A stretch of DNA of 34,544 nt, from the NCBI GenBank assembly GCA_021463195.1, contig JAJTXZ010000052.1:1-34544 (forward strand), given 5' to 3'. Position 1 is the first letter of the stretch; every line of letters begins with the position of its first letter. The notes below the pieces were generated by a model. It did not search any database and had not been told where the DNA came from. It saw only the letters and a list, made by a program, of their open reading frames with translations. Shown here piece by piece: positions 766-15,194 of this stretch. Both the position numbers and the translations under genes were made by a program. The stretch is from Anaerolineae bacterium. GTDB lineage: Bacteria; Chloroflexota; Anaerolineae; UBA4142; SHND01.

Positions 766-1650
766 ATGGGTCTCCTCAAACGATTACGGCTGACTCCCGA
801 ATTAAAAGCGGAATTAGAGCGTCTGCGCGACGATGTTCACGCCGACCCGAACAAACTGCCCATCCTCTTTTGGCTGCGCGCGTACACCATTCTCGCGCTC
901 GAACGCGATACCGTCGCGGTGCGTTGGGCAAAACTCGCCGGTTTCGTTTCGCGCACCGCGCGCGAATTTGGTATCAACGGTCTCGATCACGCGCCGGGGC
1001 GCGCGCTGCTCACCGCGTACCAAATCTTTCAAGCGGTTCCGCTTGACGGCGGCGCGGCGGTGGCAGACGCGGCGCAGCTGCGCACGCTCGATCTCGGGCG
1101 CGATTATCAAATCGAACTGCGGCCCGCGTATCAAAAAGATTTGGCGCGCGCGCATGATTGGGTCGTCGCGACGTGGACCGAATTAAGCGAAACAAAAGAC
1201 GGGGGGACGTTAGCGGGCGTGCTGGCGCGTTGGGCGCCAGTCGGACAAAGCGGCTTGCTGCCCGCGCTGATTGAAGCGCAAGAATTGGAAGGATGGCTCT
1301 CGCGCGAAACGCTGGTCGCCATCGCGCAAAGTTTGCAAGTGCCATTGAGCCAAATATACGGCGTCACCGATTTCTACGCGCACTTGTACACACAGCCCGT
1401 CGGCAAAACCTTTATCCGCGTCTGCGATGATGTGCCGTGCTATCTCGCGGGCAGTTCGGATTTATTGCATCGGCTCAAAAATATGTTGTGGGTGCGCGAC
1501 GGCGAGACCACCGAAGACGGCGCCTACACGCTCGAACATGTACCGTGTCTCGGACACTGCGCGGACGCGCCCGTCGCCATGTTTGGGCGCATGCTGCATA
1601 CACAGCTCACTCCGGAAAAAATCGCGGCGCTGCTAAATAGCAAACCCTAG
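766..1650 (+). CDS. nuoE: NuoE-like thioredoxin-fold [2Fe-2S] subunit with N-terminal extension
   Basis: The second half (about residues 145-294) is a NuoE/24-kDa-type ferredoxin: a helical part with SQIYGVTDFYAHL, then CDDVPC (Cx4C) and CLGHC (Cx3C), the four [2Fe-2S] ligands. In complex I and related diaphorases this subunit pairs with NuoF and takes electrons from NADH. At 294 aa it is well above the usual 150-180 aa: the first about 140 residues are an extra alpha-rich region that I do not recognise. The gene is followed 3 nt after its stop by NuoF, so the two are co-translated. The start is the ATG at 766, just after a terminator and a -10-like box. It could serve complex I or another NADH-linked enzyme; no nuoG or membrane subunits adjoin it. 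Confidence 0.85.
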   Translation: MGLLKRLRLTPELKAELERLRDDVHADPNKLPILFWLRAYTILALERDTVAVRWAKLAGFVSRTAREFGINGLDHAPGRALLTAYQIFQAVPLDGGAAVADAAQLRTLDLGRDYQIELRPAYQKDLARAHDWVVATWTELSETKDGGTLAGVLARWAPVGQSGLLPALIEAQELEGWLSRETLVAIAQSLQVPLSQIYGVTDFYAHLYTQPVGKTFIRVCDDVPCYLAGSSDLLHRLKNMLWVRDGETTEDGAYTLEHVPCLGHCADAPVAMFGRMLHTQLTPEKIAALLNSKP

Positions 1651-1653
1651 CGC

Positions 1654-2952
1654 ATGGAACTCAAGCTTATCACCGCCAATCTTGGAAAAATTAATCCGTC
1701 AAGCATTGACGATTATCTCGCGCACGGCGGTTATCGCGCGCTGCAACGCGTATGCGACGCGACCGAAACCGTGTCGTTCACGCATGACCTCAAAGCGGCA
1801 GGATTGGTCGGACGCGGCGGCGCGGCATTTTCCACCGGCTTGAAACGCGAAATGGCAATCCGCGCGGAACCGACGCATCCGTACCCCGCGCCGGAATGGA
1901 TTCCCGAACGCTATCGTTATTCTTCGTCGTTCGTCGTCTGCAATGCCGATGAATCGGAACCCGGCACCTTCAAAGACCGCCTTTTGTTAGAGGGCGACCC
2001 GTTTTGTATCATCGAAGCGATGACGATTACGGCGTTTCTCGCATGCGCGACGGTCGGTTTTATTTATTTGCGCGGCGAATATCCGCTGGCATACGAACGT
2101 TTAACGCACGCGCTGCGCGTCGCGCGCGAACGCGGTTATTTGGGCAAACGCATCTTGCGCGATGATTTTGCCTTTGACATTGAAATTCGACGTGGCGCGG
2201 GCGCTTATATCTGCGGCGAAGAGACGGCGTTATTTGAATCCATCGAAGGCAAACGCGGCGAACCGCGCGCCAAGCCGCCGTTCCCAACTGACAAGGGTCT
2301 GTTTCAACGTCCAACCATTATTAACAATGTCGAAACGTTCGCCAATATTCCGTTCATCACATTGGAAGGCGCGCAAGCGTATCGCCGCTATGGCACGAAA
2401 CAATCGCCGGGCACGCGCATCGTGTGCGTGAGCGGCGCCGCGCAAAAACCGGGCGCGTATGAAATCGAAATGGGTACGCCGCTGCGTTACGTCATTGAAG
2501 AGCTCGCGGGCGGACTGAAACCGGAGCGCACGCTGCAAGCTATCCTCATCGGCGGCGCGGCGGGCGTCTTTTTGAAACCCGACGAGATTGACGTGCCGCT
2601 CGCGTTTGAAAGTCTCGACGCCATCGGCGCGACCTTTGGTTCGGGCGCCATCGTCGTCTTGGACGACACCGCCAAAATGTGGGGCGTGCTATTGCGCCTC
2701 GCGCGTTTCTTTCGCAACGAGTCTTGCGGCAAATGTTTGCCCTGCCAAATCGGCACCCAGCGTCAGCTTGAGATTTTGGAGCGCATGACACAAGGCCGCA
2801 GCCGCAAATTGGAGCAAACCGATATTTCGCCGGAAGAACTGCGCTTGCTGCGCGACACCGGCGCGGTCATGCGCGACGCCTCGCTATGCGGCCTCGGCCA
2901 AACCGCGTCCAACGCGATTCTAAGCGCGTTCGATAAAAAATTAATCCTGTGA
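1654..2952 (+). CDS. nuoF: NuoF-like NADH-binding flavoprotein subunit
   Basis: A 432-aa NuoF/51-kDa homologue of full family length. Visible in order: an N-terminal segment (INPSSIDDYLAHGGYRAL), the NADH/FMN glycine-rich loop GLVGRGGAAFSTGLKRE, the FMN-site stretch CNADESEPGTFKDR, the SLBB-like part, and at the C-terminus ESCGKCLPCQIGT plus SLCGLGQTA, the four Cys ligands of the N3 [4Fe-4S] cluster. It oxidises NADH and passes electrons through FMN to Fe-S clusters. The flavin loop reads GAAFSTG where the family normally has GAGFPTG, a modest departure. It follows the NuoE-like gene by 3 nt and is closed by a strong terminator, so this pair is a self-contained transcription unit, distinct from the second NuoE/NuoF pair at 3189-5395. 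Confidence 0.9.
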   Translation: MELKLITANLGKINPSSIDDYLAHGGYRALQRVCDATETVSFTHDLKAAGLVGRGGAAFSTGLKREMAIRAEPTHPYPAPEWIPERYRYSSSFVVCNADESEPGTFKDRLLLEGDPFCIIEAMTITAFLACATVGFIYLRGEYPLAYERLTHALRVARERGYLGKRILRDDFAFDIEIRRGAGAYICGEETALFESIEGKRGEPRAKPPFPTDKGLFQRPTIINNVETFANIPFITLEGAQAYRRYGTKQSPGTRIVCVSGAAQKPGAYEIEMGTPLRYVIEELAGGLKPERTLQAILIGGAAGVFLKPDEIDVPLAFESLDAIGATFGSGAIVVLDDTAKMWGVLLRLARFFRNESCGKCLPCQIGTQRQLEILERMTQGRSRKLEQTDISPEELRLLRDTGAVMRDASLCGLGQTASNAILSAFDKKLIL

Positions 2953-2966
2953 AAAACAACGCCGTC

Positions 2967-3002
2967 AAAACAAGAGCCGCATTTATGCGGCTCTTGTTTT
3001 TT
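2967..3002 (+). terminator. Rho-independent terminator after nuoF
   Basis: A perfect 11-bp stem, CAAGAGCCGCA (2971-2981) and TGCGGCTCTTG (2986-2996), with loop TTTA. It is flanked by AAAA and followed by TTTTTT, so it can pair further and could act on both strands. It starts 14 nt after the nuoF stop. Confidence 0.92.
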
Positions 3003-3188
3003 CTGTCCAAATTGTCCTGACCGGTTTACGACCTTGCCCGCACCTCGCCTTGTTATCTTGCGTAAAGAGGCGGTACGTCACTTGCTTTGTATGACATTCC
3101 ACTCTAGACGCGCCGCGCGCGTTGCGGCATAGTAAAGACGCGGCAAATAACGCGCCGCGCCGACCACGCGCGGATTGGAGAATTGAAT
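3003..3188 (+). other. Intergenic leader of the formate dehydrogenase operon
   Basis: About 190 nt between the nuoF terminator and the next gene. I see no clear TTGACA/TATAAT pair; TATGACAT near 3090 and TAGTAA near 3131 are weak -10 candidates. GGAG at 3177-3180 is the ribosome site for the ATG at 3189. The promoter of the formate dehydrogenase unit must lie here, but I cannot place it. Confidence 0.4.
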
Positions 3189-3740
3189 ATGCTGCGACAC
3201 CCCAAAAAGAAACACCGCCAATATTTGTATCAAGGCGACCCGTTGGCTGCGCCGCCGCCGCCCGAGCTCGAAACGATTTTGGAACGGCATCGCGGGCGCG
3301 ACGACGCGTTGATTACAGTCCTCGAAGAAATTCAAAATCATTATGGTTATTTACCGCAACGTCAACTGCAATATACCGCGCGCGAATTGGGTTTGCCCCT
3401 GAGTCGCGTGTACGGCGTCGCCACTTTTTACAATCTGTTTCATTTCACCGCGCCCGGACGCTATATGGTGCGCGTATGTCGCGGCACGGCATGCCACGTC
3501 AACGGTTCGCGACAAATTATTCACGCGCTCAAAGACAAGCTCGCGATCAACGAAGACGAAAGCACGCCCGACGGACTTTTTTCGCTGCAAACCGTCGCGT
3601 GCATGGGCGCATGTTCGCTCGCGCCAGTCTTGGTCGTCAATGACAATACCTACGGACGCATGTCGCCCGAAAGCGCGGTGGACGAGATGGAAAAACTAAA
3701 ACGGGAAAACGCCATTCTCGACGCGGAGGTGCGCGCATGA
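3189..3740 (+). CDS. nuoE: NuoE-like [2Fe-2S] subunit of NAD-linked formate dehydrogenase
   Basis: A 183-aa NuoE/HoxE-type thioredoxin-fold ferredoxin of ordinary length. It has the helical part with SRVYGVATFYNLFHF, then CRGTAC (Cx4C) and CMGAC (Cx3C), the [2Fe-2S] ligands. I choose the ATG at 3189 over the in-frame TTG at 3183, because GGAG at 3177-3180 sits 8 nt before the ATG and only 2 nt before the TTG. Its stop overlaps the start of the NuoF-like gene (ATGA), which itself overlaps the FdhA gene, so the three products should be made together as one complex. The overall order NuoE-NuoF-FdhA matches soluble NAD(P)-dependent formate dehydrogenases and HylABC-type electron-bifurcating complexes. 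Confidence 0.88.
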   Translation: MLRHPKKKHRQYLYQGDPLAAPPPPELETILERHRGRDDALITVLEEIQNHYGYLPQRQLQYTARELGLPLSRVYGVATFYNLFHFTAPGRYMVRVCRGTACHVNGSRQIIHALKDKLAINEDESTPDGLFSLQTVACMGACSLAPVLVVNDNTYGRMSPESAVDEMEKLKRENAILDAEVRA

Positions 3741-5395
3741 GCAGCATCATTCGAGTCGGCGCTTCGACGTGCGGACTCGCCGCGGGCGCGGACCAAGTCA
3801 TCACCGCGATTTCGCGTCAAATCGAACGTCGTCAATTAAATGCGCAAATTCAGCGCACAGGTTGTCTCGGCGCTTGTCATCGCGAGCCGTTGGTCGAGGT
3901 TCTGGTGGATGGCGTTTCGGTATTGTACGGACCGATTACGCCCGAGCGCGTGCCGCTCGTTTTGGACCAACATTTCGGCACGGGCGAGCGCGGTTTTCAA
4001 AGCGATTGGATTGTGAGTCGTCGTCGCGACAAGAGCGATTATCCCTTTCTCGCGCGTCAGGTCAAAGTGACCACGCAGTTATGCGGCATCATCAATCCGC
4101 ATTCGCTTGACGATTATTTGGCGAACGGCGGCTATCAAGCTCTGCGGCAAGCGCTAAAATATACGCCCGAAGAAATTATTCAACTCATCAAAGCGTCCAA
4201 CCTGCGCGGCCGCGGTGGCGCAGGTTTCCCAACCGGCATGAAATGGGAAATCACGCGCCGCGCGCAAGGCGCGCCCAAATACATTATCTGCAACGCGGAT
4301 GAAGGCGACCCAGGCGCGTTCATGGACCGCACAATGATTGAGGGCGACCCGCATCGGCTGCTCGAAGGCATGTTGATTGGCGCATACGCGATGGGCGCCA
4401 CCAAAGGTTATTTGTACGTGCGCGCGGAATATCCGCTCGCGGTCAAGATGCTGCGCGAAGCGATTGCCGCGGCGACCGCGTACGGCGTCGTCGGAAAAAA
4501 TATTTTGGGCAGCGGAATGAATTTTGAATTTTTCATCAAAGAAGGCGCGGGCGCGTTTGTATGCGGCGAAGAGACCGCGCTCATGCACTCGATTGAAGGA
4601 TATCGCGGCATGCCGACGATGCGTCCGCCGTATCCGAGCGAACATGGGTTGTGGGGTTTGCCGACCAATATCAACAATGTCGAAACCTTTGCGAGCGTGC
4701 CGAGTATTATTTTGAATGGGCCCACTTGGTTCGCTTCGATTGGCACCGCCCAAAGCGGCGGCACGAAAACTTTTGCGCTGACCGGCGCAATCAAAAAATC
4801 GGGCTTGGTCGAAGCGCCGATTGGCATGCCGCTGCGCGAATTGATTTTCGAGATTGGCGGCGGCGCGAAAAGCGGACGCGAATTCAAAGCGGTGCAGCTC
4901 GGCGGGCCGTCAGGCGGCTGCTTGCCGGCGGCATTGCTCGACACGCGGATTGATTATCAAGACCTCAAAGCGACTGGCGCCATCATGGGTTCGGGCGGCA
5001 TGGTCACAGTGGACGATACAACGTGCATGGTGGATTTCGCGCGTTACTTTCTCGCCTTTACGCAAGACGAATCGTGCGGCAAATGCGTGCCGTGCCGCGT
5101 CGGCACGCGCAAACTTTTGAATCTGCTCACGAAAATCACGCGCGGGCGCGCGACCGAACGCGATGTCGAACACATGGAATCATTGTGCGAAACCGTGCGC
5201 CTCGGCTCATTGTGCGGTCTCGGACAGACCGCGCCGAATCCGATTCTCACGACCTTGAAATATTTCAAGGATGAATATATGGCGCACGTCCTCGATCATC
5301 ACTGTCCCGCTGGCGTGTGCGCGATGGATGGCGGCGAACCCTTTGAGCTATTGGCAAGCGCGAAAATTTCAACGCGCGCGGAGGAGCTGGCATGA
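3737..5395 (+). CDS. nuoF: NuoF-like diaphorase subunit with N-terminal ferredoxin domain
   Basis: A 552-aa flavoprotein with an extra N-terminal thioredoxin-like ferredoxin domain (about residues 1-110, with TCGLAAGA and GCLGAC), as in HydB/HoxF/FdsB-type subunits. The NuoF core follows: INPHSLDDYLANGGYQAL, NLRGRGGAGFPTGMKWE for NADH/FMN binding, CNADEGDPGAFMDR, then ESCGKCVPCRVGT and SLCGLGQTAPNP, the [4Fe-4S] ligands. The C-terminal tail carries two more Cys in HHCPAGVC, where bifurcating relatives have a 2x[4Fe-4S] ferredoxin domain; here that domain is not complete. Role: NAD(P)H/FMN site of the formate dehydrogenase complex. It overlaps both neighbours by 4 nt (ATGA). Confidence 0.88.
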   Translation: MSSIIRVGASTCGLAAGADQVITAISRQIERRQLNAQIQRTGCLGACHREPLVEVLVDGVSVLYGPITPERVPLVLDQHFGTGERGFQSDWIVSRRRDKSDYPFLARQVKVTTQLCGIINPHSLDDYLANGGYQALRQALKYTPEEIIQLIKASNLRGRGGAGFPTGMKWEITRRAQGAPKYIICNADEGDPGAFMDRTMIEGDPHRLLEGMLIGAYAMGATKGYLYVRAEYPLAVKMLREAIAAATAYGVVGKNILGSGMNFEFFIKEGAGAFVCGEETALMHSIEGYRGMPTMRPPYPSEHGLWGLPTNINNVETFASVPSIILNGPTWFASIGTAQSGGTKTFALTGAIKKSGLVEAPIGMPLRELIFEIGGGAKSGREFKAVQLGGPSGGCLPAALLDTRIDYQDLKATGAIMGSGGMVTVDDTTCMVDFARYFLAFTQDESCGKCVPCRVGTRKLLNLLTKITRGRATERDVEHMESLCETVRLGSLCGLGQTAPNPILTTLKYFKDEYMAHVLDHHCPAGVCAMDGGEPFELLASAKISTRAEELA

Positions 5396-8328
5396 TTACG
5401 CTTACCATTGACGGGAACCGCATCACAACCTCGCCCGACACGACGGTATTGACAGCGGCGCTCGCGCATGGAATTGAAATTCCGCGGCTATGTCATCATC
5501 CCGATTTATCGGTCTCGGGCGGTTGTCGTTTGTGCCTGGTCCAAGTGCAAGGACGCGCGAATCCCGCGCCGTCGTGCGGCTTGTTGTGCGAAGAGAATAT
5601 GGCCGTGCAAACATCCACCGACTTGATTGAAAAGATGCGGCGCGATGTGATGGATTTGTTTGTGTCCGACCATCCGATGCGCTGCGCGATTTGCGACAAG
5701 AATGGCGCGTGCGATTTTCAAAAATACGCGTATCAATACGGCATCGCCGAAACGACGCACGATTTTGAAATTAGCAAACCGCTGTATCAGGACGACAATC
5801 CCTTTTTCATTCGCGACCATGAAATGTGCATTCTCTGCGGCAAGTGTGTCCGCGTATGCGATGAAGTCGTCGGCGCGAACGCGATTGATTTCGCCGGGCG
5901 CAGTTTTGGCGCGCGCATTGCCACGCCATTTGATTTGGCATTGTCCGAATCGGCGTGCGTGTTTTGCGGTTCGTGCGTGCAAGTATGTCCCACCGCCGCA
6001 TTGCTGCCCGCCTCGCGCATTGGCAAAGGGCGCGAATGGGAATTGCAGCGCACGCGCACAGTGTGCGGCTATTGCGGCGTCGGCTGTCAAATTGAATACG
6101 CGACCCGGCGCGGTCAAATTTTATACGGGCAAGGATTTCGCGACGCGCCGGCAAACGGCGAATATTTGTGTGTCAAGGGACGTTTCGGTTGGGATTTCGC
6201 CGCGTCGCCCGAACGTTTGACGCATCCGTTGGTGAACAAAGAACTCGCCGCCGCGCTGCATTTACCTATTGACGAAAACGCGACGTTGAACGACCCGGTC
6301 TTGCAAACACGCGAAGGAAAAAATTTCGTCGCCGTTACGTGGGAGACCGCGCTCGACCTCGCCGCGCAAAGACTCGCGGACACGCTCCGCGAGACCGGCG
6401 CGGATTCCATCGCGGGATTGGCGAGCGCGCGCTGCACGAACGAAGAAAATTATCTCTTTCAAAAATTCATGCGCGCCAGCATCGGCACCAATAATATAGA
6501 CCACTGCGCGCGCTTGTGCCACGCCAGCAGCGTCACCGGCCTGGGCATGGCATTCGGCAGCGGCGCCATGACCAATCCAATTCGCGATATTCGTCACGCC
6601 GACTGCGTGTTCATCACCGGCTCGAACACGGCGGAATCGCATCCCGTCATCAGTTACGAAGTCGTACGCGCGGTAAAAAACGGCGCGCACTTGCTCATCA
6701 TTGACCCGCGCCGCGTGCCGTTGGTGGACCACGCGACGTTGTGGCTGCAACCCACGCCCGGCACAGATAGTTATGTCTTTCTCGCGATGGCGCATGTGAT
6801 TTTGCGCGAAAGTTGGCACGACGCGGAATTTATTCAAACGCGCACGGAAGGATTCGACGCGTTCGCGGAAGCGGTAAAACAATTCACGCCCGAAATCGCG
6901 GAACTGCAAAGCGGCGTGCCTGCGGAAAAAATCGAGCAAGCCGCGCGGATGTACGCGTTGGGCGAACGCAAATTCGGCGCCTCCGCGTTCTGTCCGCCGA
7001 ATGCCGCGTCGGAACCGCGCGGTCATTCATCCATTCTTTACGCGATGGGCATTACGCAACGCACGAACGGCACCGAGCTTGTCTTGACGCTGGCGAATCT
7101 GGCAATGCTCACCGGACAAATCGGCAAACCCTCGACGGGCATCAACCCGCTGCGCGGACAATCGAATGTGCAGGGCGCGTGCGATATGGGCGCGCTGCCC
7201 GACGTTTTGCCCGGTTATCAAAAAGTGTCAAACGCGGAAGCGCGCCAACGCGTCGAGAACGAATGGGGCGGCGCGGTTTCGCCCAAGCCGGGGCTGACGG
7301 TTGTCGAGATGATGCAGGCGGCGTTCGACAAAAAAATTCGCGCCATGTACATCATGGGTGAAAATCCAATGTTGTCCGACCCTGATGTGACGCACGTCGA
7401 ACACGCGCTCAAGGCGCTCGATACGCTCATCGTTCAAGACATTTTTCTCACCGAGACCGCGCAATACGCGCATCTCATTTTGCCCGCCGCGGCGTGGCTG
7501 GAAAAAGATGGCACGTTCACCAACACCGAGCGCCGCGTGCAACTGCTTGCGCCCGTTCTAGCCGCGCCGGGCAGCGCGAAAACGGATTGGGAGATTGTAT
7601 GCGAATTGGGCAAACGTTTGGACGCGCAAAGGTCGGACAATGAGAAAGTCGAGTCAAGCCGCGCGCCGCGCTGGCGCTTTGACGGAACCGAACAAATCAT
7701 GCTCGAGCTCGCGCGCGTGACGCCGATTTATCACGGCGCGCGACATCCCCGTTTGCGCGGAAACGGTTTGGCGTGGCCCATTCCCGACGAAAATCATCCC
7801 GGGACGCCTGTGCTGCACACGGAAAAATTTTCGCGCGGTCTCGGCAAATTTCACGCGCTGATGCCGCAGCTGCCGTACGAACAAACTGACGCCGAATATC
7901 CGCTCATTCTCACGACGGGCCGCATCTTGTACCAATATCACACCGGCGGCATGACGCGGCGCAGCGAAGGATTGGCGTGGCGCGAACCGCGCGGTTTTGC
8001 GGAAATTAATCCGACGGATGCGGCGCGCATTGGTTTACGCGACGGCGGCTGGGTAATTATCAAATCGCGGCGCGGGCAAGTGCGGACCCAAGCGCGCATC
8101 GGCGAACGCGTTCCGCCGGGCGTCGTTTTTTATTCGTTCCATTGGAAAGAAGGTCCGGCGAATGTTTTGACGCACGCGGAAAAATTGGACCCGTACGCGA
8201 AAATCCCCGAATTCAAAGTGAGCGCGGTGCGTCTCGAAAATCCGGCGGCGGAACATGACGCGAAAAAGAGCGCCAAACCAAAACGCTCCGAACCCACCGA
8301 CGAAATCATGGCGCAGCCAGCGGAATAA
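5392..8328 (+). CDS. fdhA: Formate dehydrogenase alpha subunit, NuoG-like N-terminus, Cys type
   Basis: A 978-aa molybdopterin oxidoreductase. Domains in order: [2Fe-2S] ferredoxin (C34, C45, C48, C62); His-Cys3 [4Fe-4S] site in DHPMRCAICDKNGACDFQ; two [4Fe-4S] motifs, CILCGKCVRVC and CVFCGSCVQVCPTAAL; the Mo/W-bis-PGD [4Fe-4S] site CGYCGVGC; then the catalytic domain to a C-terminal dinucleotide-binding domain. In NNIDHCARLCHASS, C376-H377 occupies the place of the Sec-His pair of E. coli FdhF, so this is a cysteine formate dehydrogenase. There is no Tat signal, so it is cytoplasmic. With the two overlapping upstream genes it would oxidise formate with NAD(P), or reduce CO2 in reverse. Other DMSO-reductase-family substrates are possible but less likely given the neighbours. 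A Lys/Ala/Pro-rich tail of about 30 residues ends the protein. Confidence 0.9.
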   Translation: MITLTIDGNRITTSPDTTVLTAALAHGIEIPRLCHHPDLSVSGGCRLCLVQVQGRANPAPSCGLLCEENMAVQTSTDLIEKMRRDVMDLFVSDHPMRCAICDKNGACDFQKYAYQYGIAETTHDFEISKPLYQDDNPFFIRDHEMCILCGKCVRVCDEVVGANAIDFAGRSFGARIATPFDLALSESACVFCGSCVQVCPTAALLPASRIGKGREWELQRTRTVCGYCGVGCQIEYATRRGQILYGQGFRDAPANGEYLCVKGRFGWDFAASPERLTHPLVNKELAAALHLPIDENATLNDPVLQTREGKNFVAVTWETALDLAAQRLADTLRETGADSIAGLASARCTNEENYLFQKFMRASIGTNNIDHCARLCHASSVTGLGMAFGSGAMTNPIRDIRHADCVFITGSNTAESHPVISYEVVRAVKNGAHLLIIDPRRVPLVDHATLWLQPTPGTDSYVFLAMAHVILRESWHDAEFIQTRTEGFDAFAEAVKQFTPEIAELQSGVPAEKIEQAARMYALGERKFGASAFCPPNAASEPRGHSSILYAMGITQRTNGTELVLTLANLAMLTGQIGKPSTGINPLRGQSNVQGACDMGALPDVLPGYQKVSNAEARQRVENEWGGAVSPKPGLTVVEMMQAAFDKKIRAMYIMGENPMLSDPDVTHVEHALKALDTLIVQDIFLTETAQYAHLILPAAAWLEKDGTFTNTERRVQLLAPVLAAPGSAKTDWEIVCELGKRLDAQRSDNEKVESSRAPRWRFDGTEQIMLELARVTPIYHGARHPRLRGNGLAWPIPDENHPGTPVLHTEKFSRGLGKFHALMPQLPYEQTDAEYPLILTTGRILYQYHTGGMTRRSEGLAWREPRGFAEINPTDAARIGLRDGGWVIIKSRRGQVRTQARIGERVPPGVVFYSFHWKEGPANVLTHAEKLDPYAKIPEFKVSAVRLENPAAEHDAKKSAKPKRSEPTDEIMAQPAE

Positions 8329-8596: not shown

Positions 8597-9304
8597 ATGA
8601 GCGATGTTACTTTGACCATTGACGGACAGCTGACCATTGTCCCGCAAGGCGCTACCATCTTGCAAGCCGCGCGACGCTTGGACAAACAAATTCCGACCGT
8701 GTGCTATCATCCGCATTTCACCCCCCCCTCGCTCTGCCGTGTCTGCGTCGTCGAAGTGGAAAACGCGCGCGTTCTCGCGCCGGCATGTTCTCGTATCGTC
8801 GAGAACGGTATGCGCGTGCAAACCGATTCTGCGCGCGTCCAACGCGCGCGCAAAGGGTTGTTAGAAATGCTCGATTCGGCGGTGGATTTGAGCGACGCGC
8901 CCGAGATTCAAGCATACGCCAACGCGTATGGCGCGGAACCCGCGCGCTATGGCGCGCAAATCAAACGCCGCGCGTTTCCGCTGTTCGACGACAATCCTTT
9001 TTATATTCGCGACTATACCAAGTGCATCATGTGTTGGCGCTGCGTGCAAGCATGCGGCGAAGATGCGCAGTATACGTTTGCTATTCATCGCGCTGGACGC
9101 GGTTTCGACGCGCATATCGCGACGTTTGAAAATGTTCCGCTTCCCGAATCCACTTGCGTCTATTGCGGCAACTGCGTGCAAGCATGTCCCAGCGGCGCGC
9201 TCAAACCGCGGCGCGAGTATTGGCTCGAGCATGGTTTGGACTTGAAAGAATTGGCACGCGTCAGTCAACTGGAACGGCGTGAAAAAAGCGGCGACGCCAA
9301 ATAA
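8597..9304 (+). CDS. Short ferredoxin-type Fe-S subunit, [2Fe-2S] plus two [4Fe-4S]
   Basis: A 235-aa relative of the N-terminus of NuoG/FdhA. It holds a [2Fe-2S] domain (C in IPTVCYHP, then CRVC and APACS) and, after about 80 residues, CIMCWRCVQAC and CVYCGNCVQACPSGAL, two [4Fe-4S] sites. The His-Cys3 cluster found between these in the 978-aa FdhA is absent. It should be an electron-transfer partner, most simply of the second catalytic subunit at 10407, which has no such N-terminal domains: together they equal the single chain at 5392. I place the start at 8597, where AAGGCGG precedes the ATG; the frame stays open upstream to 8492. A run of eight C at 8721-8728 lies inside the [2Fe-2S] domain. 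Confidence 0.8.
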   Translation: MSDVTLTIDGQLTIVPQGATILQAARRLDKQIPTVCYHPHFTPPSLCRVCVVEVENARVLAPACSRIVENGMRVQTDSARVQRARKGLLEMLDSAVDLSDAPEIQAYANAYGAEPARYGAQIKRRAFPLFDDNPFYIRDYTKCIMCWRCVQACGEDAQYTFAIHRAGRGFDAHIATFENVPLPESTCVYCGNCVQACPSGALKPRREYWLEHGLDLKELARVSQLERREKSGDAK

Positions 9305-9367
9305 AACGCGGCTTGCAAAATACGCCGCCGCGCCGCGCGTTTACTATTTCCGATAGGATTCAACGAG

Positions 9368-10249
9368 ATGAACTCAAAACAGCTGGCAATGCTTTTGGCT
9401 GCGGCAATTCTTTTGGTCTTGCTCGGCGCCGGATTTTATTATTTTGTGTATCGCGCGGCGCAGACGCCCACGACGCAAGAAATTCAAGCGTTCGACGCGG
9501 CGCGTTTGCAATATCACGCCAACACGCTGCGCGGGCACGCGAATGAACTCAAGAACGCGATGGGGCGCACCAGCGACCCTGCCGTGCGCCGACACACCGA
9601 ACACATTATCAATCTATTGGTCGGCAGCGCCAGTCCCGATTACGGCGACCTTGACCGCGACGGCGTGGTCGAAGATCCTGGCGACGGCGCCGGCATGTTC
9701 GCTTATCTCGCCGCGCTGCGCGCGCAGGCAGCCGACGCGCGCGAAACGGTGGCAGTCGAAAAAATTGACCGCGTGAATAATCTCTTGACGCAGATTTTGG
9801 CGCAGAGCAAAATTATCATCACCGCCCAAGACATGGACAATGTGCAGCCGCAAATTGATTTCATTCAAGGCGCCGCACAGCAAGTCGCGCGCGGCGCCAC
9901 CGACAGCGTACCGGAAATCGCGCAGCTTTTGCACGCCAGTTCCACGCAGCCCGGCGTGAATCCCGAGTTGCCGCAGGCAGGCACAACTACGGTGGACATG
10001 AGCCAATTTGTGTTTAACCCCGCGCAACTCAAAGTAAAACCTGGCACAACCGTTGTCTTTATCAACAAGGACAATGCCAAACACACCGTCACGGCAGACG
10101 ACCGTTCTTGGAATTCGCTGGATATTGCCCCCGGCAAAACATTTTCTTTTACCTTTCAACAAGCTGGCACAATCCAATATCACTGCGAATATCACGGCGA
10201 TGTGAACGGCATAGATATGGCGGGCGATATTATTGTGGCGGAGGAATGA
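9368..10249 (+). CDS. Membrane-anchored cupredoxin (blue-copper protein)
   Basis: A 293-aa protein. Residues about 5-28 are a hydrophobic anchor or signal (AMLLAAAILLVLLGAGFYYF) with no lipobox Cys. A middle region is mostly helical and holds an acidic loop, DLDRDGVVEDPGDG, resembling an EF-hand-like calcium loop. The last about 90 residues form a plastocyanin-type domain: DMSQFVFNPAQLKVKPGTTV, then His in AKHTV, Cys and His in YHCEYHG, and Met in IDMAG, a complete type-1 copper ligand set. It should carry electrons outside the cytoplasmic membrane. AGGA at 9355-9358 stands 9 nt before the ATG. It sits between two subunits of an apparently cytoplasmic formate dehydrogenase, an odd place for an extracytoplasmic copper protein. 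Confidence 0.85.
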   Translation: MNSKQLAMLLAAAILLVLLGAGFYYFVYRAAQTPTTQEIQAFDAARLQYHANTLRGHANELKNAMGRTSDPAVRRHTEHIINLLVGSASPDYGDLDRDGVVEDPGDGAGMFAYLAALRAQAADARETVAVEKIDRVNNLLTQILAQSKIIITAQDMDNVQPQIDFIQGAAQQVARGATDSVPEIAQLLHASSTQPGVNPELPQAGTTTVDMSQFVFNPAQLKVKPGTTVVFINKDNAKHTVTADDRSWNSLDIAPGKTFSFTFQQAGTIQYHCEYHGDVNGIDMAGDIIVAEE

Positions 10250-10406
10250 TTTTATATTTTTGAATTAGCCGCCGCCGCGATAAAAAAAACGCCAAGCATC
10301 GGCGTGAGAACGCACGCGGAATGCGCGAATGGGTTTAGCCAAACAAATCACAACCGCCGAAACAAAAACACAATCATGTTATATCCGAGTTGCGCGGGAG
10401 AGCCGC
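10250..10406 (+). other. Intergenic gap before the second fdhA
   Basis: 157 nt. It holds an A-tract at 10281-10288 and a small hairpin, ACGCC with GGCGT, near 10289-10307. I see no clear promoter. The frame of the next gene stays open back to 10329, but GGGAG at 10396-10400 supports the ATG at 10407. Confidence 0.4.
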
Positions 10407-12557
<2,151 letters not shown>

Positions 12558-12697: not shown

Positions 12698-13240
12698 ATG
12701 GAAAATTATTCGCTTGAAACGCTGCCCGAACCCGACCCAAAGCAGCGCCGCATCACGCGCCTATTGTTGTTGATTTGGCTCGTTCTCGGCTTGATGGTGA
12801 TTGGCATCTTGTGCTATATCGGCGCCACCGCATTTCGCCCCCCCCCCTCAACGCCGCTTTATGTCGGCGATGTAGATGAATATCCGCTCGGCTCGATTAA
12901 TCTGGAATTTATCAACGCCGATTTTTTTGACGCCGCCGCAAATAAATCACAGGCGACGCTGCCCTTGCAAGTCGTACGCGATACGACTGGCGCTTGGACT
13001 GTATATTTCGCGCGCAGCCCCAATCCGACGGAAGCGATTCGGATTCCGCAGCAGTGTGTGGTCGAATGGGACGAGTCGCTCGGACAATTCCTCGAATTGT
13101 GCGGCGGATCGCGTTGGGCGCGCGATGGCAGCTATATCGCCGGGCCCGCGCCGCGCGGTCTCGATTCATTTCCCGCGCGCATCGAAAACAATCAGTTGTA
13201 TATTGAACCTAAATTGACGCCGGGCGCGCCGCGCCCCTAA
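12698..13240 (+). CDS. Membrane-anchored Rieske-like protein lacking most cluster ligands
   Basis: A 180-aa protein with one membrane segment (about residues 22-46) and an outward C-terminal domain. Residues 135-156, CGGSRWARDG followed by GPAPRGLD, match the second half of a Rieske fold (HGSxxxxDG...GPAPRxL). In a Rieske centre the ligands are CxH and CPxHGS. Here C120 is kept, but the first His position is V122, the second Cys position is E133 and the second His position is G136. The protein therefore should not bind a normal [2Fe-2S] cluster; C120 and C135 could form a disulfide. It lies 140 nt after the second fdhA, on the same strand. A run of ten C at 12838-12847 follows the membrane segment. 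Assignment to the fold is inference from the conserved tail motif. Confidence 0.6.
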   Translation: MENYSLETLPEPDPKQRRITRLLLLIWLVLGLMVIGILCYIGATAFRPPPSTPLYVGDVDEYPLGSINLEFINADFFDAAANKSQATLPLQVVRDTTGAWTVYFARSPNPTEAIRIPQQCVVEWDESLGQFLELCGGSRWARDGSYIAGPAPRGLDSFPARIENNQLYIEPKLTPGAPRP

Positions 13241-13286: not shown

Positions 13287-13293
13287 TTTGCGC

Positions 13294-13908
13294 GTGACCA
13301 TCGCCACCGCGTTTGACCTTGCCGCGCTTGCGCGCCATTACGAGCTTGCGCCGGCGCTCGCGTTAGGTTTGGGCGCGGGCCTCTATTTTGAATATTATCG
13401 GCGCGCGCAGCCCGCGCCGACGCGTTTCATCACCGGTTTGAATCGCGCGCTCGAGAGCTCGCTCGCGGCGCGTCACGCGCAATATATTCACGCGCCGCGC
13501 GACGCGGCGCGCGCGGCGCTGCGCGAAAACGCGCTGTGGTTTAATCTGGACCGTCAACCCGCCACCGCGCTGCTGGGACTGGAAATGTTGGCGGAAGAAT
13601 TGGTCTATTATGATACACAATCGGACTGGCGTGTTTGTTTGCGCGCAATGGCCGGCGCGATTGACGACCATGAGGCGCTATATCGAGGCGTCTATATTTT
13701 ATTTTTGCAAGAAATCGCGCGGCTGCTGGATATCCAACCGCTGATAATCGAATTACAAGAAATCGCGGCAGAGTGGACGCAATTCGCCGCGTATTTAAAT
13801 GCTTGCGCCGTATCGGAAAGCGTTCCCGATTTTGAAAAAGCGGGACGGCTCGCGCGGCGCTTGGCTTTTCGCGAAGAACACTTTTGGGGAAAGGCGTTGG
13901 ATTTATGA
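13294..13908 (+). CDS. Uncharacterised protein, possibly BtrH/DUF4872-like
   Basis: A 204-aa, mostly helical soluble protein. The N-terminal part, ATAFDLAALARHYELAP followed by ALALGLGAGLYFEYY, resembles the 'GLGGGLGFxY' segment of BtrH-type (butirosin biosynthesis H, DUF4872-linked) proteins, and the helical C-terminal half would fit DUF4872, but the N-terminal Cys of that family is not seen. I treat this as a weak suggestion only. The frame is also open to a TTG at 13288, but that codon lies between the -10 box and the expected transcription start, so GTG 13294 is the better start. It is followed 59 nt later by a permease gene. Confidence 0.55.
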   Translation: MTIATAFDLAALARHYELAPALALGLGAGLYFEYYRRAQPAPTRFITGLNRALESSLAARHAQYIHAPRDAARAALRENALWFNLDRQPATALLGLEMLAEELVYYDTQSDWRVCLRAMAGAIDDHEALYRGVYILFLQEIARLLDIQPLIIELQEIAAEWTQFAAYLNACAVSESVPDFEKAGRLARRLAFREEHFWGKALDL

Positions 13909-13967: not shown

Positions 13968-15194
13968 ATGCCGCGTTCCACCTGGCTCAATCTGCTCATC
14001 ATCTTGCTCGTCATTATTGCCGCATCCTATGTCGCGCAAGTATTATTCGGTTTCCTCAGCGGCTTTTCCGACATTATCCTCATTCTCGTCCTCGCGTGGC
14101 TCGTCGCATACGCGCTCGGCCCGCTCGTCGAAATAATTAACGCCCGTTCGCTGCCTCAAGCAATCGTCCAGTTGGGCGCGCGTCTGGGCGGCGAACGCTT
14201 TGGCAAACAACTGGCAAACTTTCGCGTTCAGCGCGCGCTCGCCGTCGCGTTGGTGTATCTCAGCTTGGTCGTGGTGGTCATTATCATGGTCGCGTCCCTG
14301 CTACCCGCCATTGTCACGCAAGTAAACGCGGTGGCGCCGCAGCTCGGACGGCTCGATGTCGCGCAGCTCGCATTGAGCAGTTTGCTCGAATCCACGTTGA
14401 GTAAATTCAATATCGGCTTGAACGTGCAGGACTTGATTAACAATGCGCTTGCGAATTTAGAAGCGCTCGCCACGCCGATTTTGCGGAACACGGTTTCGAT
14501 TTTGACTAGCGTGCTTTCGCTCTTGGGCAACGCGCTGCTCGTTATTTTGCTCTCGTTCTTTTTGGCGCTCGATGGGCCGCGTTTCAGCAAAATGCTTTTT
14601 GATATTCTGCCACAGCGTTTGCATCAAGAAACGCGAATGTTTTTCTTGACCACCGACCGCGCGTTCGGCGGTTTTTTGCGTTCGCAGATTTTGCAAGCGC
14701 TAATCATCGGTATCGGAACGGGTCTCATTCTTGCCGCGTTCGGCGTGCAAGCCGCGTTGGTCGCAGGCGTTTTTGCCGGACTATTTATGCTCATTCCTTT
14801 GGTAGGTCCGGCGCTCTGCATGTTGCCCCCATTGTTGGCGACCGTTCTCTCGGCGCCCGACAAAGTAGTATGGGTGATGATTCCAATCATCGTGCTGCAA
14901 GTGGCGATTGTCAACGTGTTGATGCCGCGCATTATGGGCAACGCGCTGGGGTTGCATCCGCTCGTCATTATCGTGTCGCTGTTGGTGGGGGTCAAACTCG
15001 CGGGTTTTTGGGGCGCCTTTTTTGCCATGCCTTTGGCGGGGATCATTTCAGCATTCGGCGCGTTTATCATTCGGCGGCGCCAACGTCTTGCCGAATGGAC
15101 GTCGGCGATTGTGCAACAAGATACCGATGAACCCAACGCGCTATCCGAGATTGAACTGGGCGCGGACGCGTCGCGCAATAAAAATGACGCGTAG
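13968..15194 (+). CDS. AI-2E family transporter (PerM-type permease)
   Basis: A 408-aa polytopic membrane protein with the typical family layout: paired N-terminal membrane segments (LLIILLVIIAASYVAQVLFG, then an ILILVLAWLVAYALGPLVE segment), a third hydrophobic segment near residue 95, a long extracytoplasmic part, and a C-terminal bundle holding FFLTTDRAFGGFLRSQILQA and PLVGPALCMLPPLLATV, which are characteristic of PF01594. Members have been linked to autoinducer-2 export, Na+/H+ antiport and general efflux, so the substrate is unknown. The ATG at 13968 follows a tandem repeat and lacks a clear ribosome site. Its 3' end faces that of the HD-GYP gene, 11 nt away, with no terminator between them. 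Confidence 0.85.
   Translation: MPRSTWLNLLIILLVIIAASYVAQVLFGFLSGFSDIILILVLAWLVAYALGPLVEIINARSLPQAIVQLGARLGGERFGKQLANFRVQRALAVALVYLSLVVVVIIMVASLLPAIVTQVNAVAPQLGRLDVAQLALSSLLESTLSKFNIGLNVQDLINNALANLEALATPILRNTVSILTSVLSLLGNALLVILLSFFLALDGPRFSKMLFDILPQRLHQETRMFFLTTDRAFGGFLRSQILQALIIGIGTGLILAAFGVQAALVAGVFAGLFMLIPLVGPALCMLPPLLATVLSAPDKVVWVMIPIIVLQVAIVNVLMPRIMGNALGLHPLVIIVSLLVGVKLAGFWGAFFAMPLAGIISAFGAFIIRRRQRLAEWTSAIVQQDTDEPNALSEIELGADASRNKNDA

Follow-up and report, generated by a model that had tools for sequence, protein, structure and literature searches.

Genes and features of the locus

The window, i.e., the whole 34,544-nt stretch of DNA analysed here, carries a gene coding for a membrane-anchored Rieske-fold protein devoid of the ligands of the [2Fe-2S] cluster, which is a known fold in a new, ligand-less form. 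The gene, its segments and its neighbours are as follows:

9368–10249, + strand: membrane-anchored cupredoxin protein (Pfam, synteny)
10401–12557, + strand: FdhA2, a cytoplasmic-type formate dehydrogenase alpha subunit, not consistently adjacent (TIGR01591, synteny)
12698–13240, + strand: coding sequence of the ligand-less Rieske protein, 180 aa, with ATG as the start codon (ORF, orthologs, fold models, dN/dS)
12737–12832, + strand: membrane anchor helix, residues 14–45, with KQRRITR at its start and without the Tat motif RRx[FLM] (DSSP on models, motif count)
12995–13057, + strand: first former ligand loop, residues 100–120, ending in the disulfide-type C120 (alignments, composition)
13094–13105, + strand: second former ligand loop ELCG, residues 133–136, with C135 as the second disulfide-type cysteine (alignments, C120–C135 spacing)
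13142–13156, + strand: retained Pro loop GPAPR, residues 149–153 (invariant in the alignment)
13288–13908, + strand: shortened BtrH/DUF4872-like protein, downstream neighbour (PF16169, E 2e-10; synteny)
13968–15194, + strand: AI-2E/PerM-family membrane protein, conserved downstream neighbour (PF01594, E 3e-53; synteny)

The membrane anchor, the cupredoxin neighbour, and a second formate dehydrogenase catalytic subunit, all named in the initial annotation, are indeed present. The ligand-less protein is predicted to be bitopic: a single helix would lead from its short N-terminus in the cytoplasm to the Rieske-fold domain on the extracytoplasmic side.

Cluster ligands and the cysteine pair

Canonical Rieske proteins possess two boxes, C-x-H-L-G-C and C-P-C-H-G-S, each with two Cys and one His. 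The His and the leading Cys bind the cluster, while the two trailing Cys, one from each box, are joined in a disulfide. In alignments that took in canonical members from the genus itself and from its order and phylum, the former Cys and His ligands of the first loop correspond to S107 and N109, and those of the second loop to E133 and G136, the equivalent of G136 being Ala in two species. The first loop is ca. eight residues longer than in canonical Rieske proteins, and the assignment of S107 and N109 is therefore alignment-dependent. The composition of the protein proves the ligand loss without any alignment, as there is no His in the entire sequence and Cys is found only at positions 39 (within the helix), 120, and 135. 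Since C120 and C135 align with the cysteine pair that forms the disulfide in respiratory Rieske proteins, all four ligands are, judging from the sequence, lost and none is left. The initial annotation had counted three of the four as replaced, by V122, E133, and G136; the last two assignments stand, but V122 and the count do not, as is evident from the alignments and the lack of His. It had also taken CGGSRW...GPAPRGLD for a preserved Rieske hallmark, of which the second Cys, the glycine, and GPAPR are retained, but CGGSRW is not an intact hallmark, the canonical string being CPCHGS.

C120 and C135, 15 residues apart, are invariant across all the ligand-less copies, and the aligned canonical proteins likewise show no variation in the corresponding pair. 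In AioB of A. faecalis the ligands are C60, H62, C78, and H81, and the disulfide pair C65–C80 shows the same spacing of 15; in canonical Rieske proteins this pair braces the cluster loops (PMC3758308). C120 and C135 probably form a disulfide outside the cell. Their invariance would also suit a redox-active disulfide, the protein then being a thiol-disulfide sensor or exchanger. We regard this as decidedly unlikely, considering that the pair corresponds to a loop-bracing disulfide conserved in canonical proteins, that there is no CxxC motif, and that no Dsb-like neighbour was seen.

Rieske fold

A Pfam search of the 180-aa protein gave no match at E ≤ 1. A profile built from the orthologs matched solved Rieske proteins at E 5e-10, and the NCBIfam PetC models match residues 120–171 (E 4e-7); the Rieske relationship is far beyond chance. 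The comparison of a predicted structure with known Rieske domains, proposed in the initial annotation, placed Rieske folds at the top even when no canonical sequences were present in the alignment. The AlphaFold2 model based on six ligand-less sequences only had a pLDDT of 72, and its top structural matches were Rieske folds. The model based on 32 sequences including canonical Rieske proteins reached a pLDDT of 91 and matched Rieske domains up to Z 13.5 (9rk4), being biased toward the Rieske fold by the canonical relatives in its alignment. As the former model is free of that bias and still yields Rieske folds at the top, the fold assignment is secure.

Conservation, selection, and distribution

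Five intact orthologous copies, all ligand-less, were found in four species of one uncultured Chloroflexota genus. The orthologs, 62 to 67% identical, come from genomes G005, G004, and G001, the latter with copies on two contigs that probably represent two strains. Partial orthologs are present in two further species, as a C-terminus at a contig edge in G003 and an N-terminus preceding an N run in G002; the ligand scoring accordingly covers four species, with these two left out. A search for close homologues with intact ligand motifs at these positions found none, which excludes a sequencing or assembly error. A sequencing error or local frameshift is likewise ruled out by four species sharing the ligand-less form, in five copies that are all intact. 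The dN/dS ratio is 0.07 for the closest pair (dN 0.012, dS 0.168) and 0.08–0.26 for the other pairs with unsaturated dS, with comparable values for the neighbouring genes. The ligand-less family is under purifying selection, and the dN/dS values rule out a decaying pseudogene. The earlier idea that the fold has been reused without its cluster is thus borne out by the ligand-less form occurring in every readable member of the genus and by the selection acting on it.

In a scan of 84,980 prokaryote genomes/species, matches to the degenerate pattern C[GA]GxxWxxDGxxxxGPAPR were, chance matches aside, confined to this genus, the matched members being labelled as Chloroflexota or Anaerolineae MAGs. 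A relaxed pattern, run on the class (396 genomes), again picked out this genus, plus chance matches. Since a match in either scan depended on C-[GA]-G and GPAP-like residues at a fixed spacing, ligand-less forms with other motifs would have escaped. In profile searches of 400 genomes of the phylum, the readable loci retrieved were Rieske proteins with ligands, except for one Cys-to-Ser variant. As far as the scans reach, the ligand-less Rieske protein is restricted to one genus. A literature search that covered few subscription journals found no paper on a degenerate or clusterless Rieske protein.

In the phylogenetic tree, the ligand-less family and a divergent relative from G005 form one clade with a long stem, located within the Chloroflexota respiratory Rieske proteins (97/96); because of the long stem, the exact parent of the clade is unsure. 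The ligand-poor relative (locus L037, 5166–5681, + strand) has the sequence STHLGC...DPCGG, retaining one His and the disulfide pair. Its gene, found in one species only, abuts or overlaps a cation-efflux gene at the latter's end, and a multicopper oxidase is encoded upstream.

The Cys position of the second loop is occupied by an acidic residue in all the copies, E in the ligand-less family and D in the relative from G005. Another metal might be bound by carboxylates in the vicinity of the former cluster site (E133, D143), with the protein then serving in metal handling, and the proximity of the relative to the cation-efflux and multicopper oxidase genes points in the same direction. Nevertheless, such a role is very unlikely for a protein with no His and, if the disulfide forms, no free Cys, the more so as the relative is known from a single species.

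Export signal

A Tat-like RRx[FLM] motif precedes the membrane helix in 24 of 26 canonical Rieske relatives and in no member of the ligand-less family, the G001 copy lacking even the arginine pair. Canonical Rieske proteins receive their cluster before export and for this reason rely on the Tat system. The loss of the cluster and that of the Tat motif would thus fit together; with no cofactor to be inserted before export, the Tat signal would have been dropped and Sec export is likely. The family lends itself to a direct test of whether cofactor and Tat export go together in Rieske proteins.

Gene neighbourhood and formate dehydrogenase

The molybdoenzyme encoded next to the ligand-less protein matches TIGR01591 with E 7e-240, above the cut-off, while the arsenite oxidase model scores far weaker and below the cut-off. 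The N-terminal sequence of this FdhA2 has no export signal, and its gene is grouped with NuoE/NuoF/HoxU-like genes, which is a cytoplasmic NAD-type arrangement. FdhA2 and the ligand-less Rieske domain would be located on opposite sides of the membrane. In sister-family genomes FdhA2 is present at ca. 76% identity, and no ligand-less relative was found there.

Within the genus, fdhA2 lies directly upstream of the ligand-less Rieske gene in G000 (the genome of the window), G002, and G004, and in G002 its stop codon is directly followed by the start codon of the latter. At least five genes separate the two in G001, and in G005 fdhA2 occupies another locus; in these two genomes it is a short-chain dehydrogenase gene and a membrane protein gene that directly precede the ligand-less Rieske gene. 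Of the six species, only two (G000 and G002) have the cupredoxin gene in this position. The survey of conservation envisaged earlier has therefore given a split result, as the ligand-less form is conserved in the genus but its synteny with fdhA is not consistent.

That the ligand-less protein is a subunit by which the neighbouring formate dehydrogenase docks on the membrane would agree with the position of fdhA2 in G000, G002, and G004. It is nonetheless highly improbable, given a cytoplasmic NAD-type FdhA2, a sister family that has FdhA2 and lacks the ligand-less protein, and the intervening or relocated genes in G001 and G005. These observations, together with the variable placement of the cupredoxin gene, make the formate dehydrogenase assembly proposed in the initial annotation a weak idea, and the claim was not upheld. 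An obligate formate dehydrogenase subunit was rejected on account of the cytoplasmic NAD-type FdhA2 and the inconsistent linkage.

Downstream, the species examined have a common block coding for a BtrH/DUF4872-like protein, an AI-2E family protein, an HD-GYP sensor, and fumarase, with a BtrH/DUF4872-like homologue present in all six species of the genus. Since the whole block has been inherited within one genus, this synteny is weak functional evidence.

Two further features of the region concern the neighbouring genes themselves. Two NAD-type formate dehydrogenase sets lie side by side at 766–8328 and 8597–12557, one with a fused NuoG-FdhA (978 aa) and the other split into a HoxU-like protein and FdhA2, and two NuoE/NuoF-like pairs are encoded upstream in this region. 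Full-length sister-family homologues (354–398 aa) of the BtrH/DUF4872-like protein (13288–13908, + strand) keep a CGST(A) cysteine and an FPGHR-containing middle region, both missing from the protein encoded here, which may be a second one of the locus with a lost active site.

Relation to the bc operon

On another contig (C56), the genome of the window has a canonical Rieske gene with all the ligands and, after it, genes for cytochromes b and c; the ligand-less copy is hence not its only Rieske protein. The ligand-less gene does not adjoin cytochrome b and is situated outside this operon.

An accessory or assembly subunit of a bc-type quinol oxidase, with the cluster-free head docking at the Rieske-head site on cytochrome b/c to regulate or assemble the complex, would account for respiratory Rieske proteins being the closest folds and for the retained Pro loop. 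Moreover, an AI-2E family gene is located just after the bc operon in two sister-family genomes, and here a gene of that family lies beside the ligand-less Rieske gene. The ligand-less gene being outside the bc operon of its own genome speaks against such a subunit, and the AI-2E proteins of the two families are only ca. 40% identical, which leaves their orthology unsure; we consider it unlikely. A decoy function, in which the cluster-free head competes with a redox-active Rieske protein or holds its place on a quinol-oxidising (bc) complex in a docking or regulatory capacity, appears quite improbable.

In the sister family, an AI-2E family gene directly follows a glycosidase-like gene at four loci (L162, L163, L165, and L166), and at L162 and L163 both come after the cytochrome b/c genes of the Rieske operon, while the genome of the window has its Rieske operon on one contig and its AI-2E gene on another.

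Proposed role and comparison with known systems

The reading that we prefer, and hold to be probable, is that of a cluster-free, disulfide-braced extracytoplasmic Rieske domain, anchored in the membrane and acting as a non-redox structural, docking, or assembly module. The domain would have descended from a Chloroflexota respiratory Rieske protein and, with all four ligand positions and every histidine gone, could no longer bind [2Fe-2S] in the Rieske manner. The cysteine pair by which high-potential Rieske proteins brace their cluster loops is still there, probably as a disulfide, and the domain would carry no electrons. As the ligands have been lost but the fold is kept and maintained by selection, a structural or docking protein is most likely, presumably serving another membrane or extracytoplasmic protein, although sensing or regulation via the disulfide would give the same sequence pattern. 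The fold, the ligand loss, the conservation, the purifying selection, and the loss of the Tat motif are read from sequences and models, while the topology, the disulfide, Sec export, and the non-redox role are deduced from them. The family is a clear-cut natural example of selection preserving a respiratory Rieske fold whose ligands have all gone, with the Tat motif lost to match; it is also a warning that a Rieske-like sequence need not mean electron transfer.

With the respiratory Rieske proteins (QcrA/PetC of bc1 and b6f complexes) the ligand-less protein would have in common the single N-terminal anchor and the outward Rieske fold, and it shares with them the disulfide-type cysteine pair, the GPAPR Pro loop, and its placement in the tree. 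It differs from them in lacking the CxH...CxxH ligands, the Tat motif, and a cytochrome b operon, and in its longer first loop. NirD, the small subunit of NAD(P)H nitrite reductase (3c0d, 4aiv), was among the structural matches and has the same fold. NirD can lack the cluster. However, it is soluble, cytoplasmic, and encoded beside NirB, whereas the ligand-less protein is membrane-anchored (helix 14–45), is predicted to face outward, and has FdhA2 and the BtrH/DUF4872-like protein as neighbours. AioB, the Rieske subunit of arsenite oxidase, resembles it in the fold (Z ca. 11.8) and, in A. faecalis, in the spacing of the disulfide pair (PMC3758308), but retains C-x-H-x15-C-x2-H and the cluster, while the molybdoenzyme beside the ligand-less gene scores as a formate dehydrogenase. 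A parallel in principle, a redox fold kept for structure without its cluster, is the plant mFDX-like protein, a ferredoxin with one ligand lost that is a structural subunit of complex I (PMC10069907); it is mitochondrial, has a ferredoxin fold, and belongs to an unrelated family.

Other variant Rieske proteins

Two other groups of variant Rieske proteins were met. Those of family f29, from three genomes, are encoded at L079 (1480–1998, − strand; G303), L087 (1480–1986, − strand; G076), and L197 (1477–2034, − strand; G168). They have an intact CTHLGC and a second loop of the form ISPCH[DN]GHF, with one ligand Cys changed to Ser; no cytochrome b was seen in the short stretches read.

Family f40 comprises second Rieske proteins encoded in tandem beside a canonical copy at L179 (1897–2598, + strand; G647), L183 (1903–2610, + strand; G567), L184 (1903–2619, + strand; G611), and L185 (576–1289, − strand; G640), with cytochrome b adjoining in L185. 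The first loop contains CTH and the second CP[AML]CGS, the second His ligand being replaced by Cys and both disulfide cysteines lost. By its sequence, the f40 protein looks like a natural Rieske protein with three Cys and one His as ligands, and it resembles the engineered His64Cys variant of a Sulfolobus Rieske protein (PMC2946596).
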